Assembly: GCF_023238205.1 (NCBI RefSeq)
Contig: NZ_CP096659.1
Span: forward strand, 2,311,626 to 2,375,625
Direction: 5' to 3'
DNA: 64,000 nt
Source of the DNA: Halorussus limi
Lineage (GTDB): Archaea > Halobacteriota > Halobacteria > Halobacteriales > Haladaptataceae
Part shown: positions 43,915 to 53,674 of the stretch, piece after piece
Numbering within the stretch: position 1 is the first letter of the stretch
Layout: the number at the start of each line of letters is the position of its first letter
The notes under the pieces: model-generated
What the model was told of the DNA's origin: nothing
Databases searched by the model: none
What the model saw: the letters and a program-made list of their open reading frames with translations, nothing else
Program-made: the position numbers and the translations under genes

Positions 43915-44634
43915 GTGGAAACTGCAATAGGTCATCCGCGTGTCGTAACAGTCGTGTTCGAGCGTTCGACTGCTTCCGCTCCCGACGCGCCTGACACACC
44001 CGACGGTACACTCCCGCGCTGGCTGGCCCGATACGCCGACTGGGGTCTGTACGGACTGCTGGCAGGGACGATTCTGTGCCTCGCCGCGTTCGTCACCAAC
44101 CCCGTGCCGGACCCGTCGTTCCCGTGGGCGACGCTGCCCGCCTCGGTTCGGTTTCCGGTCGCACAACCGCGAATCGAACACTGGCCGGTGACCTACACCG
44201 CCGGTATCTGGTTGTGGGTGTTCTGTCTCCCGGCGGTGTTTCTGGCCGGGTATCGCCGGTACGCGGGGCGATACGCGGCCGAGAGCGGACGGAGCGCCAC
44301 CCTGTGGCTGGTCGGACTCCCGACCGCGGCGATGTTCGCGCTCACGACCTACTGTCGGTTCTTCTGGCCGAAGCTCTACCCGGCGTCGTGGAACGCGCCG
44401 TCCTACACCTTCGTCTGCTGGCTCTACTGCTCGTCGTACGTTCCGCTGTGGAGCAACGCGGCCTACGCCGTCGCCGTGCTCGGTCTCGTCGCGACCCTGC
44501 TCGCGTACCGCGGAGTCGACCTGACGAAGTACGCGCTGGCGGCGTTCGGCGTGCTGGCGCTCCCGCTCGGCCTGCCAGCGCTCTACGCGGCGTCCCTCCG
44601 CCACAGTGATTCAGACCCGAGCGAGGGTCGTTAG
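43915..44634 (+). CDS. membrane protein of unknown function
   Basis: 239 residues with about five hydrophobic helices (YGLLAGTILCLAAFVTNPVP, YTAGIWLWVFCLPAVFLAGY, LWLVGLPTAAMFALTTYCRF, YAVAVLGLVATLLAYRGVDL, LAAFGVLALPLGLPALYAAS). It has four cysteines, two in VCWLYCSSY. The start is uncertain: GTG at 43915 is used here, and a GTG at 43951 would shorten the N-terminus by 12 residues. It precedes the halocyanin gene by 60 bases but that gene has its own promoter. Not recognised. Confidence 0.65.
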   Translation: METAIGHPRVVTVVFERSTASAPDAPDTPDGTLPRWLARYADWGLYGLLAGTILCLAAFVTNPVPDPSFPWATLPASVRFPVAQPRIEHWPVTYTAGIWLWVFCLPAVFLAGYRRYAGRYAAESGRSATLWLVGLPTAAMFALTTYCRFFWPKLYPASWNAPSYTFVCWLYCSSYVPLWSNAAYAVAVLGLVATLLAYRGVDLTKYALAAFGVLALPLGLPALYAASLRHSDSDPSEGR

Positions 44635-44665
44635 CAGAGTTTTAGGCCGACCAAAACCGGAACGC

Positions 44666-44677
44666 TTTTTATTTTTA
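44666..44677 (+). promoter_or_regulatory. TATA box of the halocyanin-repeat gene
   Basis: A T-rich TATA-like element centred about 24 bases before the ATG at 44695. Its right end overlaps the palindromic operator. Confidence 0.6.
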
Positions 44678-44689
44678 GGTATACCTAAA
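44674..44689. promoter_or_regulatory. perfect 16-base palindromic operator (DtxR-type half sites)
   Basis: TTTAGGTATACCTAAA is a perfect palindrome. The half site TTAGG is the core of DtxR/IdeR/SirR-family operators, which sense iron or manganese. It lies between the TATA box and the start codon, where a bound repressor would block a leaderless transcript. Metal control is inferred, not shown. Confidence 0.7.
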
Positions 44690-44694
44690 CCGAT

Positions 44695-47142
44695 ATGGCG
44701 ACTAATCGACGAGACCTGTTGAAAGCGGGGAGCGCACTGTTCGCGGGCGTCTCGCTCGCGGGTTGCGGCGGGAAGTTAGAATCTGTGGCTCCGGGGTCGT
44801 CCGGCGACCAAAGCGGCGGCGACGCGCCGAAACCGGCCGAACTGGCCGTCGCTGCCGAGTGGAACGTCTACCGGGCGCTGGCGGCCGACGCGCTCGCGCT
44901 CGGCATCGCGGGCGAGTTCGACGCCGCGGCCGGAGTCGCGGCCGACGCCTTCGAGAAGTTCGAGGGGGCCACGGGCGAGTGGGGTGCCCACGAAGTCCTC
45001 GAAACCACCAGCGAGAAGCGCTACGCGGAGTTCGAGGAGGCGCTCGGCCAACTCCGAGAGCGCGCGACGGGCGAGAACGTCGAGGAGATGCGAGTCGAGG
45101 CGGACCTCGTCTCGAAGCACCTCTCGGCCGCCCAGACGAAACTCGTCGGCGAGGAGAACGCTCGCGCGCTCGACCTCCAGTTCTTCGGGACGCGCCTCGC
45201 GACCGCTTCGTCGCTCTACGCGGCCGGGAAGGGCGACGCCGCGGCGACGGTCGCGGGCGACACCTACGAGCAGTTCGAAAAGGCCGCGGTCCACGAGGAC
45301 CTCGAAACGGCCGATTCCGAGAGCTACGAGAGCTTCGAGAGTGCCGTCGAAGCGGTCGAGAAGGCCGCGAAGGCCGGAACCGGCGGAACCGTTCGTAACG
45401 AGGCAAACGCCGCCTTCGACGCCGCCGCGACGGGGTCGTACGCGGTCGCGGCCAGCGAGAGCGCGGCCGGGGCGGGCCACCTCGCGGCGATGCAGGCCCG
45501 CGGCTACGACGCCTCGATGCTGGCCTCGCTTGGCGGCCCCTCGACCGACTTCGCTCACGCCGCCGCGCTGAACGGCTACCGGGCGCGGGCCTACGACGCG
45601 GCGTGGCTGACCGCCCGCGGGAAGTCCGAGTACGCGAAGCGAGTCGCCGAGGATATCTTCGCCCACTTCGAGGGCGCGAAAGCCCACGAAGCGCTCGAAG
45701 AAGCCGACCACGAGGCCTACGAGGGCTTCGAGGGCGGACTGGAGGACCTCGCCACCGCCGCCGGGAACGGCGACGCGGAGGCCGCCGCGAAAGCGGCCGG
45801 TACCGTCGAGAAGCACCTCCGCGCGGGCATCTCGACGCTCGCCACCGACACCGAGGCCGCGGTCCTGCAGGCGGCGTTCTTCCGAGCGCGGTTCGGTGAC
45901 GCCCGCGAACTGTACGCGCTCGGCGACGGCGAGGCCGCGGCCGGCCTCGCGCAGGGCCTCTTCGAGCGATTCGAGAAGGACCAACTCGGCTTCCACGAGA
46001 CGCTCGAACGGACCAGCGAGGACCTCTACGAGGCCTTCGAGCACGAACACCTCCAGAAGGGACTGATTCCGGGGTTCCGGAACGGGAACGACGAAGCGGT
46101 CGCGACTCACTTCGCGGGCGTCGGCGACGCCCTCGTCGAGTTCGCGACGCAGGCCGGGTCGACGGCGCAGGTGAGCGCGGCCGAGAGCGGCCTGATGAGC
46201 GCCCGCGTCTTCGACGCCGCGGCGCTCGCTGCGCTCGGCGAGTCGAGTCGGGCGAAGTCCGTGGTCCGGTCGGCGTTCCGCCACTTCGAGGAGGGCGCGG
46301 GCGGGTTCCACGAGGCGCTGGAACACGCCGGCCAGAAGCGATACGAGTCCTTCGAGAGCGCCCTGAACGCGGTCGGGAGCGCTGCGGAGAGCGGGTCAGA
46401 CGGCGACGCCTACGCGAAGGCGAAGGCGTTCGACGGCGAGGCCGTGGCCGCGATTTACGCGGTCGTCGCGAACGCGGGCGGCGACTTCGGCGGCGCGGCG
46501 GCGGCGGTCGCGCAGGACGCCTTCGCGGCGTTCGAGGAGGCGAAAGTCCACGAGTTGCTGGAGAAGGCCGACCGCGAGGCCTACGAGCGCTTCGAGGGTA
46601 AACTCGAAGGGCTAATCGGGGCGCTCAAAGGCGGGAGCGGCGTCTCCGACGCGCTCGCGGCGTTCTCGCGGGCCTCGGTCCGCGCGGAGTTCGCCGTCGC
46701 TGGAGCGCCGGCGAAAGCCCCGGTCGGCGAGGGCGAGTCCGGCGGCGGCAGCGAGAGTGGGTCCCAGACGCAACTGCAGGGCGGTCCCAACGTCGTGAAG
46801 GGCGTGCCAGACGACGCCGACCACGTCGTGAAACTGAAGGCCGTCTCGTTCGACCCGGCCGAACTGACGGTGCAGAAGGGCGACAAAGTGGCCTTCGAAC
46901 ACGCCGGCGGCGAGGCCCACTCGGTCACGGCCTACGAGGACGGGATTCCGGAGGGCGCAGCGTACTGGGCCTCCGGCGACTTCGACTCACAGAAGCAGGC
47001 CGAGTCGGGGTGGGAGAAGGGCAACGGTGCAGTTCAGTCGGGCCACTCGTTCGTCCGTACCTTCGAGACGAAAGGCACTCACGAGTACTTCTGCATTCCC
47101 CACGAGGCCGCGGGGATGAAGGGAAAAATCGTCGTGGAATAG
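44695..47142 (+). CDS. Tat lipoprotein with helical HExLE repeats and a C-terminal halocyanin domain (DUF5059-like)
   Basis: 815 residues. A twin-arginine signal (NRRDLLKAGSALF) ends in lipobox SLAGC with C24 as lipid site, so the protein sits on the outer face of the membrane. Residues about 50-670 form an all-helical array; six units each contain a F-x-x-FE helix and HExLE: H99, H200, H331, H434, H539 and H619. Interleaved histidines occur at 142, 262, 374 and 472. Residues 700-815 are a type 1 copper domain with ligands H742, C800, H803 and M808. Probable role: electron transfer linked to metal or haem handling; the operator just upstream suggests metal control. Confidence 0.85.
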   Translation: MATNRRDLLKAGSALFAGVSLAGCGGKLESVAPGSSGDQSGGDAPKPAELAVAAEWNVYRALAADALALGIAGEFDAAAGVAADAFEKFEGATGEWGAHEVLETTSEKRYAEFEEALGQLRERATGENVEEMRVEADLVSKHLSAAQTKLVGEENARALDLQFFGTRLATASSLYAAGKGDAAATVAGDTYEQFEKAAVHEDLETADSESYESFESAVEAVEKAAKAGTGGTVRNEANAAFDAAATGSYAVAASESAAGAGHLAAMQARGYDASMLASLGGPSTDFAHAAALNGYRARAYDAAWLTARGKSEYAKRVAEDIFAHFEGAKAHEALEEADHEAYEGFEGGLEDLATAAGNGDAEAAAKAAGTVEKHLRAGISTLATDTEAAVLQAAFFRARFGDARELYALGDGEAAAGLAQGLFERFEKDQLGFHETLERTSEDLYEAFEHEHLQKGLIPGFRNGNDEAVATHFAGVGDALVEFATQAGSTAQVSAAESGLMSARVFDAAALAALGESSRAKSVVRSAFRHFEEGAGGFHEALEHAGQKRYESFESALNAVGSAAESGSDGDAYAKAKAFDGEAVAAIYAVVANAGGDFGGAAAAVAQDAFAAFEEAKVHELLEKADREAYERFEGKLEGLIGALKGGSGVSDALAAFSRASVRAEFAVAGAPAKAPVGEGESGGGSESGSQTQLQGGPNVVKGVPDDADHVVKLKAVSFDPAELTVQKGDKVAFEHAGGEAHSVTAYEDGIPEGAAYWASGDFDSQKQAESGWEKGNGAVQSGHSFVRTFETKGTHEYFCIPHEAAGMKGKIVVE

Positions 47143-50018: not shown

Positions 50019-53000
50019 TCAGGGCCACCCCGGCGAAGTCTCGTCTCGGTTTCCGCCTCGGTCGCCGACCCCGGGCGGACCGGGCGGCACGACCACCGCG
50101 ACGACCGTCTCGGTCTCGAAGCCGACCGGCGTCGTGCGCCCGACGACCTCCGACTCGCCGTCGCCGTCCCAGTCGAGTCTCACCGTCGCCGACTCGCGGA
50201 CGTAGGTCACCGACTCGCCGGGCGGCCCCTGCGGCGCGCTGACCGCGAAGCGGGCGTACTCGCCCAGGACCTCGACCGACCAGACGTTGAGCGTCGCGTA
50301 CCAGTAGCCCGGCACCGGCGCGACCGGTAACCCGGCCGGGACTGCGCCCAAGGCCTCGCCGAACCACCGCTTGCTGGCGACCTCGGTCGCGTTGGCCAGT
50401 CCGCTCGCCACCGCCTGCTTGAGCGCCGTCCGGGCGACCTGTCGGGTCACGCTCGCGGTCTCGTTCACCGTCGAACGCGTCGGTCCGGCGACTCGCTCGC
50501 GGACCGATTCGACCGCCAACTCGGCGCGCAGGCGGACCCAGTCGCGCCGGTCGGGTCGCCGAAGCGCGGGCCGCCCGCGGACCACGGCCGCCGCGACGGC
50601 CCGGCCCGCCGTCCCGTTCGCCACGGCGAGCGCCCGCCCGGCGGTCGTGTTCCACCGCGCCAGCGCCGACTCGACCGCGGCCCGGCGCTCGGCCGCGCTC
50701 AGGTCGAACCGCGAGAGAGCCAACCCGCCGACCAACTCCCGGCGGACGTTCCGCATCGACGCCGCGAGCGACCGCCGGAGCGCGTCCCGCCGACGCGCCA
50801 GACTCTGATTGTCCGCCTCGGCCAACGTGCGGTTCGCGGCCCGGAGCGCCAGCGCGGCGGTCCGGAGGTCGGTCCGGCCAGACCCGCCGTCGCCGACCGC
50901 CGCCGCGGCGACCGACTCCGCGGCGTCGCCGTACGGGACCGCGAAGACGTTCAGGTTCCGGGCCGCGAGCGGACGTTTCTCCTCGCCAGCGGGAATCGCG
51001 GCGACCTGCTCGTGGTCGAGGCCCGCGAGCGTGAGGTACGGCGGTGCGCCCGACACGCTCAGATTGACCGCGCTCCCCGGCCCGTCGGCGGGCAGGGGTC
51101 GCGGCGGCGAAGTCTCCGGCGTCGTTCGGGCGCGCAGAATCCGGCGGACGCGGTCCAGCGACACCCCCGCGTCGGCGAGCGCGTCCTTCACGCCGCTCCG
51201 GGTCCGCTCCTCGCGGTCGGCACGCGACTCCAATCGCGCGACCACTCGGTCGAGGTACGCGGCCCGCGCCGCGACCCGCGCCCGGTCGGCCGCGCCGTCG
51301 TAGCGACCGGGCGCGTCGAGGAGCGCCGCGCGCCGACTCCGGACCGCCCGAGCGAGTTCGGCGGTCGGCGGCGGACCGCCGACCGCCCGACGCCGAGCGA
51401 CCGTCACCGAGAGGTTCCGGACGCGTTCGCGCAGGCCGACGAGGTCCCGGTAGACCCACCGTCGGAGTCCGTCCGGCCGCCGACCCGCGACCCGTTCGGG
51501 CCGAGTGTCGAGCGTTCCGGCGACCGCCCGACGGGCGGCGGCGTCGAACCCGCCGCGCGACTCGACCAACTCCTCGGTCGCCCGTTGCGACAGGTCCCGG
51601 AGGTTCGGCCCGCCGAGCGCGCCGCCGCGCTCGTGGACGCCCGACACCGGCCGCGAGGGGGCGAACTCGGAGTTCGCGTCGTGGTCGCCCGCGACCCCGA
51701 CCCGCACCGCGAACGTCTCGGTCCACCGCTGGACCGTTCTGCGGGTCTCGGAACCGGTAGTTCCGTTCCCGCGAGCCCCGCCCTCTCGGGTCCACTCGGC
51801 GACGAGCGTTCGGGTTCGCACGACTCGGCGCGACTCGGCACCGAGCAGGTGCCGCCCCTCCGGAGTCCCGAGGGTCGGCGCACTCGCAAGGTCGCCGACG
51901 CCGGACTCCACTGCGGTCCTCGTCCGGACCTCGCTCGACCGGAGCGTCCAGTTCGCGCCCGGCGACTCGGGCGCGGGCCGGGCCTCGCTCTCGACCTCTC
52001 GGACCGCGGCGACGAGGCGCGCGTCGGCGGCGTAAGCCGAGCGCAGAACGCCGGAGAGGTCGGTCCCGTTCGCGCCGGTCACGAGGCCCGCGAACGCGCG
52101 GTCCGCGGTCCGGTTCACGCCGACGCGGAGCGAACGCCGGGTCTCGCGAGAGTCCGTCGGGTTCCCGCTCGTCACCCCGCCGGGCATCGGATTGCGCTTC
52201 TGGTAGTCCCTCGCGGCCGCGAGCAGTTGGTCGGTTCGAGCGGAGCCGTAGTGGGCGTTGGCGGCCGTGAGTAGGTCCGTCGCGCCGACTCTGGCGGTCG
52301 CCCACCTGACCGCGCGCCGGGCCCGGGGGTCGGTCCGGCCGAAGGCGGCCCGCTGTTCGCGCAGGAGCGCGCCGTTCGCCGCGAGTTCGACGTGGCGGTT
52401 CGCCACCACGTTCTCGACCGGCGCGCCGCCGTACTGGGCGTAACCCCGCGCCCACGCCACGGCGTAGAGTCGCGCGGTGAGTCGGCGGCCGAGGCCGGGC
52501 GCGAGCGGACCGCGGTCGAGTCGGGACTCGAACCGCTCGACGCGCTCGTGGAGCGCCAGCGCGGGCGTCGCGACGACCAACTCGGGCGCGAGTCGCTCGC
52601 GCTCGACCACCCGGCCGTCGCGGGTCGCGGTGACGGTGACGTTCCGGATTCGGACGCGGAGTCCGGCGTTCTCGGCGCTCCCGTTGGCCCCGGCCGGGTC
52701 GACTTCGACCCGGCGCTTGGCCGCCCGGAGGTCCGAGGCGTTCCGAATCGCCGGGAGCGAGACCGAAGCGCTGACCGCCGCCGACCCGCTTCCGCCCGTC
52801 CGCACGCCGACTTCGCCGAGACTCTCGCGGGCCGCGAGGTAGATTCGGAGACGGAGCGCGTCGCGGAACGGCGTCGAGTCGTTCAGCGCGCGCCCCGCAG
52901 TGGTGTTCGCGACCGCCGTCACCGGCGCGCTGGCGGCCCGTCGCCCGGCGCGTGCGACCGCATCCCGGAGCGCGGTGTTCGTCGCGGCGGTGGCGCGCTC

Positions 53001-53141
53001 GACGGCGACGCCCACCGAGTCGTCGGTCCGGGGCGTCGGCCCGCCAGCCAGCGAGGCGCTGAGGCCCGCGCTCGCGACCAGTAGGACGACGCCGACGAGC
53101 GCGAACGGAACCCGGCCGCGCCGGTCCTCGGCCAGTCTCAT
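50019..53141 (-). CDS. very large membrane-anchored exported protein of the pilus cluster (DUF7286-like)
   Basis: 1040 residues. A short basic N-terminus (RLAEDRRGRVPF) is followed by one helix (ALVGVVLLVASAGLSASLAG); the rest is an Ala/Arg/Val-rich, largely helical ectodomain of about 1000 residues with no cysteines that I can see. It has repeated VGVNRTADRA-like and RAAVESAL-like helical segments and Asn-x-Ser/Thr sites. Near the end TPVGFETETVVAVVVPPGPP looks beta-like. It is the last of four ATGA/GTGA-overlapped genes, and the start at 53141 overlaps the previous stop. Probably a surface or structural part of the pilus-like system. Confidence 0.75.
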   Translation of the reverse strand: MRLAEDRRGRVPFALVGVVLLVASAGLSASLAGGPTPRTDDSVGVAVERATAATNTALRDAVARAGRRAASAPVTAVANTTAGRALNDSTPFRDALRLRIYLAARESLGEVGVRTGGSGSAAVSASVSLPAIRNASDLRAAKRRVEVDPAGANGSAENAGLRVRIRNVTVTATRDGRVVERERLAPELVVATPALALHERVERFESRLDRGPLAPGLGRRLTARLYAVAWARGYAQYGGAPVENVVANRHVELAANGALLREQRAAFGRTDPRARRAVRWATARVGATDLLTAANAHYGSARTDQLLAAARDYQKRNPMPGGVTSGNPTDSRETRRSLRVGVNRTADRAFAGLVTGANGTDLSGVLRSAYAADARLVAAVREVESEARPAPESPGANWTLRSSEVRTRTAVESGVGDLASAPTLGTPEGRHLLGAESRRVVRTRTLVAEWTREGGARGNGTTGSETRRTVQRWTETFAVRVGVAGDHDANSEFAPSRPVSGVHERGGALGGPNLRDLSQRATEELVESRGGFDAAARRAVAGTLDTRPERVAGRRPDGLRRWVYRDLVGLRERVRNLSVTVARRRAVGGPPPTAELARAVRSRRAALLDAPGRYDGAADRARVAARAAYLDRVVARLESRADREERTRSGVKDALADAGVSLDRVRRILRARTTPETSPPRPLPADGPGSAVNLSVSGAPPYLTLAGLDHEQVAAIPAGEEKRPLAARNLNVFAVPYGDAAESVAAAAVGDGGSGRTDLRTAALALRAANRTLAEADNQSLARRRDALRRSLAASMRNVRRELVGGLALSRFDLSAAERRAAVESALARWNTTAGRALAVANGTAGRAVAAAVVRGRPALRRPDRRDWVRLRAELAVESVRERVAGPTRSTVNETASVTRQVARTALKQAVASGLANATEVASKRWFGEALGAVPAGLPVAPVPGYWYATLNVWSVEVLGEYARFAVSAPQGPPGESVTYVRESATVRLDWDGDGESEVVGRTTPVGFETETVVAVVVPPGPPGVGDRGGNRDETSPGWP

Positions 53142-53674
53142 CGCGACCACGTCCTGACGGTCAGGCGGACCCCGCGGACCGAGAACGCGGCCGCGTACAC
53201 GTCGGCGTCGGGCGGCGGCGCGGGACCGGCGACGACTCGGCCGGACCCCACCGACCTCCCAGAGGTCCGGGCGGTCGTGCGGCGCGCGACCACCTGCGCG
53301 CGGCCTCCCGACCGATGGAGCGCCCGGCCGACTCGCGCCGCGACGGCCCGCGCGAAGTCGGTCGCCGGGTCCGGTCCGGCCTTCGCCGCGACTGCGCCGG
53401 CGAGCAGTCCGGCGAGCGTGTCGTGGACCGTCCGGTTCTCCGGGTCGCCGACGCCCGCGGCGGCCGCGTCCGACGACGGAGCGCGGTAGGTCACGCTCGC
53501 GGTACTCGTCGCCAGTACCGTCGCGGCCTCGTCGGCGGCGTCCGGAGCGGTCGCGGGACCTGCTCCCGACTCGTTCCGCGTCTCGGACATCGGCGTCCCC
53601 GCGAGCGTCAGCGCGCTCGCCGAGACCAGCAGGAGGCAGAGCGAGACGTCGAGGACCGTGCTGATGGCTCTCAC
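53138..53674 (-). CDS. membrane-anchored exported protein of the pilus cluster (DUF7284-like)
   Basis: 178 residues. N-terminal RAISTVLDVSLCLLLVSASA is a hydrophobic anchor that begins a few residues from the start, a pilin-like layout. The ectodomain is Ala/Thr-rich with ATSTASVTYRAPSS and a basic C-terminus (RLTVRTWSR). A GTG start at 53674 forms a GTGA overlap with the preceding gene's stop; the long upstream extension is a shadow. The NCBI label DUF7284 is from memory. Confidence 0.7.
   Translation of the reverse strand: MRAISTVLDVSLCLLLVSASALTLAGTPMSETRNESGAGPATAPDAADEAATVLATSTASVTYRAPSSDAAAAGVGDPENRTVHDTLAGLLAGAVAAKAGPDPATDFARAVAARVGRALHRSGGRAQVVARRTTARTSGRSVGSGRVVAGPAPPPDADVYAAAFSVRGVRLTVRTWSR

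Follow-up and report, generated by a model that had tools for sequence, protein, structure and literature searches.

What would a haloarchaeon do with a surface protein that joins a copper domain to six helical units? We asked this of an ORF on the + strand of the window, the 64,000-nucleotide stretch of the Halorussus limi genome analysed here, which encodes a product of 815 aa (positions 44695-47142). The architecture, DUF5059 (PF16502) followed by PF00127, is already catalogued, and the family is functionally uncharacterised. Pfam treats DUF5059 as a single 619-residue domain, and the window protein matches that profile over positions 1-619 of 619 with 755.9 bits (gathering score 25, E 5e-227). 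HcpE of Haloferax (HVO_1228, annotated as "halocyanin domain protein") has the whole architecture in common with the window protein. Of 292 Halobacteria genomes sampled, 78 carry DUF5059, and a wider phylum sample of 295 genomes gave 11 matches, all in the same order. The literature that we found naming DUF5059 or HVO_1228 does not describe the six-unit make-up, the iron boxes or the link to FTR1 reported below; this is a known family with a new functional reading.

Architecture and kinship of the protein

The protein is a Tat lipoprotein, beginning with the signal MATNRRDLLKAGSALFAGVSLAGC, and would be anchored to the cytoplasmic membrane on its outer side; an earlier note on this DNA had placed it on an outer membrane, which haloarchaea do not have. 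The same note had described a terminal copper domain, and its residues H742, C800, H803 and M808 proved to be invariant in 56 relatives. Against the NCBIfam halocyanin model TIGR03102 the protein scored 42 bits, below the curated cut-off of 93.8 bits, and is therefore not a member of that family. The copper domain was the sole match among the matches listed when the PDB was searched by sequence with the family profile, and a Foldseek search with the full-length model returned nothing beyond it among the best 50 matches. The features of the gene and its promoter are collected in Table 1.

Table 1. Features of the DUF5059-halocyanin gene and its promoter, in window coordinates (res, residues of the encoded protein).
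Feature	Position	Strand	Basis
Distal DtxR-like box TTTAGGCCGACCAAAA, 1 mismatch	44641..44656		Paired box in 63/65 relatives
AT-rich core-promoter region between the boxes; putative BRE/TATA role	44657..44673	+	Sequence; layout conserved
Proximal DtxR-like palindrome TTTAGGTATACCTAAA, exact	44674..44689		One of just 5 exact copies across the 4.6 Mb genome
Tat signal and lipobox (LAGC), res 1-24	44695..44766	+	RR and LAGC conserved among relatives
Unit 1 (res 47-152): E90, H99, E100, E103, Y110, E114	44833..45150	+	Predicted helices; invariance
Unit 2 (res 153-253), degenerate (H200 in 36/56)	45151..45453	+	Conservation
Extra helix between units 2 and 3 (res 255-278; H262, invariant D272)	45457..45528	+	Predicted helices; conservation
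Unit 3 (res 284-384): H288, E326, H331, E335, Y342, E346	45544..45846	+	Conservation; best single-unit FTR1 N-domain match, 88-89%
Unit 4 (res 385-488): E427, H434, E435, E438, Y445, E449, H452, H472	45847..46158	+	Conservation
Unit 5 (res 490-593; last helix common with unit 6): E532, H539, E543, Y550, E554	46162..46473	+	Predicted helices; conservation
Unit 6 (res 572-669): E614, H619, E623, Y630, E634	46408..46701	+	Predicted helices; conservation
Flexible linker (res 670-712), partly low pLDDT	46702..46830	+	Predicted model
Type-1 copper (plastocyanin/halocyanin-like) domain	46831..47139	+	Pfam PF00127, E 1e-15; Foldseek plastocyanins; ligand invariance

The pattern [FY]xxFE-x(4-9)-HExLE-x(5-8)-YxxFE has exactly six matches in the 815-aa protein, and the six F-x-x-FE/HExLE units of the earlier note are borne out, with H99, H200, H331, H434, H539 and H619 all at the positions given there. 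The protein holds HExLE 6 times, whereas 2000 shuffled versions of it averaged 0.02 and never held more than 1, and pairwise hhalign comparisons among the six units gave 97.9-99.6%; by these sequence comparisons the units are true, mutually homologous repeats. Their constant core extends to a YxxFE motif downstream of HExLE. AlphaFold2, with 56 family sequences as input, yielded a model of the mature protein (pLDDT 91) and of the helical part (pLDDT 94, pTM 0.81), the latter with 30 helices, about five per unit, including one additional helix after unit 2 and one helix common to units 5 and 6. In the predicted structure, helix B ends with FxxFE, the short helix C is HExLE and helix D begins with YxxFE, and a stretch of 25-29 residues, located at one end of every predicted bundle, holds all three motifs, an arrangement which in the model is compatible with clustered ligands and is no demonstration of a cluster.

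The resulting E/H/E/Y/E set, to which the first helix often adds an Asp, shows no or almost no variation among the 56 relatives in units 1, 3, 4, 5 and 6. Unit 2 is decayed, with H200 kept in 36/56 relatives (the His is lost in 20) and the Tyr in 14/56. A second set of histidines proposed earlier, at 142, 262, 374 and 472, is present in full and mostly unconserved (H142 in 14/56, H374 in 6/56, H262 in 43/56 and H472 in 56/56 relatives), and two conserved histidines, H288 (56/56) and H452 (55/56), had been overlooked. Three-unit DUF5059 forms of 503-523 aa occur in Halopiger, Halobiforma and one metagenome-assembled genome (L094-L097), with His/Asp-rich linkers before the copper domain and a degenerate middle unit.

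Searching the PDB with the helical domain using Foldseek gave nothing significant (best E 0.18), the weak matches being PsbQ-type four-helix bundles and, at E=3, EfeO. The earlier note had likened HExLE to the HxxE motifs of imelysin/EfeO-type proteins, claiming no homology. The likeness did not hold, as the motif is H-x3-E; its Glu residues follow the His by 4 or 1 positions, which does not make an HxxE metal motif. Kinship to M75/imelysin (EfeO/EfeM) was rejected as well, with no Pfam M75 match in the protein and only 0.2-0.4% in hhalign comparisons to M75, and M75 was not found in the 295-genome phylum sample. EfeO (cupredoxin plus M75/imelysin) is likewise a cupredoxin fused to a helical His/Glu domain in an iron-uptake context, but its domain order is the reverse of that in the window protein, which has HExLE rather than HxxE and no detectable M75 similarity.

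The units did match the extracytoplasmic N-domain of FTR1 proteins, a domain which has no Pfam model of its own and which we saw in an archaeal 560-residue FTR1 (L168), in three-unit FetM-like proteins and in cytochrome c/FTR1 fusions. Pooled DUF5059 units aligned to it by hhalign at 88.4% (E 2.8e-6, an E-value for a single comparison) in the register FE...H/E...D...FE/IE, whereas the scores were about 1% for reversed profiles, no more than 3.3% for 60 block shuffles and no more than 0.6% for unrelated families. A larger profile of 18 sequences, the match to which covers one domain class, gave 78.9% for the pooled units, 87%, 89% and 86% for units 1, 3 and 4, only 10-22% for units 2, 5 and 6 taken singly, and at most 4.2% for shuffles. 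Since the pooled units and units 1, 3 and 4 score 78.9-88.9% and the decoys no higher than 4.2%, remote homology to the extracytoplasmic FTR1 domain is likely, though not proven.

The N-domains of FetM and of the cytochrome c/FTR1 fusions resemble the DUF5059 units in register (FE, E for H, D, (I/L/F)E), and the tandem units of FetM, together with a fused electron carrier or an adjoining copper protein, resemble the DUF5059-halocyanin layout. Precedents for such pairings are alphaproteobacterial cytochrome c-N-domain-FTR1 fusions and FetM beside a P19-type "iron transporter" gene. The window protein differs from these proteins in having no permease, His instead of Glu, six units, and a cupredoxin where FTR1 systems have cytochrome c or P19. 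It has no PF03239 match and is thus not itself an FTR1 permease (transmembrane, REGxE); no PF03239 was detected in the host genome either, so that the FTR1/EfeU partner of an EfeUOB system is absent there, and the haloarchaea sampled yielded no FTR1 among the matches listed.

Iron boxes at the promoter and expression of the gene

To compare promoters, 65 upstream regions of relatives with full sequence were scanned for palindromes with at most 2 mismatches to the DtxR-like TTTAGGnnnnCCTAAA. At least one was found in 65/65 regions and two in 63/65, with a box spacing of 33-37 bp in 62 of the 63 two-box regions; an exact copy was present in 46/65, and the proximal box of the DUF5059 relatives starts 18-23 bp 5' of the start codon. 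As a control, a box stood at 20 of 1002 other genes of the same loci, many of these being divergent neighbours that have the DUF5059 intergenic region in common. In their half-sites, TTAGG/CCTAA, the boxes agree with DtxR sites already known (PMC524172).

Within the host genome, the exact motif was found in 5 places, compared to 0 for a reversed control pattern, and allowing up to 1 mismatch gave 16 sites, compared to 1 for the control. The five exact palindromes mostly adjoin iron/siderophore ABC genes, and other boxes stand upstream of an SBP/permease/ATPase operon of the Fe(III) type, of genes for two Peripla_BP_2 lipoproteins and of one for an ABC ATPase. The hcpE-type promoter carries DtxR-type TTAGGnnnnCCTAA boxes in common with iron transporters, and the genome encodes at least three DtxR-type regulators. 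From these sites, the DUF5059 gene is probably a member of an iron-regulated set, with predicted binding and repression by the regulator.

Two transcriptomes of H. volcanii link the orthologue HVO_1228/hcpE to siderophore genes in a correlational manner: it was up 2^4.2-fold with siderophore (iuc) and iron-SBP genes in one strain (PMC7714728) and down 2^2.9-fold together with siderophore/iron-SBP genes in another (PMC9051519). HVO_1228 does not appear in the main text of an H. volcanii iron-starvation proteome or among the strongest changes given there. No universal operon partner was seen in the neighbourhoods of DUF5059 genes. In Halobellus clavatus, FecB-FecCD-ATPase genes lie directly upstream of the DUF5059 gene with a 51 bp gap, and in Halohasta salina it is flanked by two ferritin-family genes. 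DUF5059 and IucA/IucC occur together in 32 genomes when about 21 are expected (Fisher p 0.0009, kinship between genomes ignored). IucA/IucC was not found in the host genome, and an iron role would therefore be independent of that siderophore pathway.

Two other genes in the window are recorded here. A putative membrane protein of 239 residues without a Pfam match (43915-44634, + strand) ends 6 bp 5' of the distal iron box, and a DUF7286 protein of 1043 residues is encoded at 50019-53150 (- strand).

Proposed role and alternatives

Iron uptake in haloarchaea is poorly resolved; in Halobacterium, for instance, energy-dependent iron uptake has been measured and the gene was not identified (PMC11349517). 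With the strong promoter signature that ties it to the iron regulon and its link to the extracytoplasmic FTR1 domain, DUF5059, present in about a quarter of haloarchaea, now has a function hypothesis. Iron acquisition is well supported and the best-supported role, and the protein is probably expressed only under iron shortage. The earlier idea of surface metal handling coupled to an electron carrier gains from the iron boxes in all tested relatives and from the co-expression of the orthologue with siderophore genes; the haem function suggested alongside it found no supporting evidence, and inspection revealed no haem motif.

More specifically, we think it rather likely that the protein is an iron-starvation-induced lipoprotein for ferroxidase-type iron capture that feeds Fe(III)/siderophore ABC importers. 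Iron would be bound in five of the six units by the E of FxxFE, the H and E of HExLE and the Y and E of YxxFE, often with the Asp. The halocyanin domain would then take an electron from bound Fe(II), the ferroxidase direction, and pass it towards the respiratory chain, and the Fe(III) might be handed to the co-regulated ABC importers, since the host has no FTR1 permease. By analogy, the copper proteins that work with iron permeases (P19/FetP, Fet3) and the cytochrome c-FTR1 fusions suggest that Fe(II) gives up its electron to a carrier placed next to FTR1-type units. To our knowledge, P19/FetP is not a type-1 copper protein, and we liken it to the window protein by description only. P19/FetP is a copper-dependent periplasmic iron protein, and by a literature title cited in PMC10783030 its copper site would act together with FTR1-type N-domains in iron uptake. 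A bolder version, possible although we lean against it, is a permease-free ferroxidase, in which six FTR1-type modules fused to a halocyanin feed ABC importers as a separate archaeal form of oxidative uptake.

The direction of electron flow separates the ferroxidase reading from its strongest rival, a ferric reductase, in which the halocyanin, fed by the respiratory chain, would reduce Fe(III) or Fe(III)-siderophores and the helical sites would capture the released Fe(II). Such an enzyme would be expected under the same regulation and co-expression with siderophore genes, and the above-chance co-occurrence with IucA/IucC speaks for it; but the host itself lacks IucA/IucC, and the potential of type-1 copper is generally higher than that of iron bound by carboxylates, which favours oxidation. 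We regard reduction as unlikely. Less probable again is copper-for-iron substitution, by which a cell short of iron would make more of a copper-based electron carrier, with the helical part as a mere scaffold or spacer. Iron-box control would fit, as would the replacement of cytochrome c by halocyanin as the haloarchaeal carrier (PMC8305020), but a spacer would not be expected to keep H/E/Y sets invariant in five units or to resemble a domain of an iron permease, and most haloarchaea lack the gene.

Slightly more doubtful still is a protein that sequesters and quenches Fe at the surface as a store, buffer or antioxidant; the repeated carboxylate-rich sites and the ferritin-family neighbours in Halohasta agree with this, whereas the predicted iron-repressed control, with boxes in common with importers, is opposite to that of usual stores. 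Handling of manganese or haem instead of iron is very improbable: DtxR-family regulators can sense Mn and Peripla_BP_2 proteins can bind haem, but the scanned host box targets include ABC genes of the Fe(III) and siderophore types, a ZnuA/MntC-type binding protein is not among them, and the transcriptomes tie the orthologue to siderophore genes. If the ferroxidase reading is true, copper supply and iron uptake would be coupled in haloarchaea, in parallel with yeast Fet3-Ftr1 and bacterial FetMP and through a different protein, and the protein may show how haloarchaea capture iron and oxidise it when it is scarce and the usual permease is missing.

Other genes behind iron boxes

Further boxes in the host precede a lipoate ligase-like gene and two loci with DUF7552 genes, one of which has DUF7551 as well. 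DUF7552 genes lie directly behind DtxR-like boxes in two of three host copies (L124, 5368-6289; L128, 6116-7989), the third copy being in the same cluster, and DUF7552 also adjoins DUF5059 in several genera (also L039, L040 and L074). DUF7552, with DUF7551 at one locus, is probably an unrecognised family of the iron regulon. The iron box that precedes the lipoate/biotin-ligase-like gene of the host (L122, 5414-6343) is an exact one. A gene of an RGP-like glycosyltransferase family with an iron box (L123, 5430-6638) adjoins the host Fe(III) ABC operon, and a similar boxed glycosyltransferase-family gene is present in a Halobonum locus (L067, 1660-2832).
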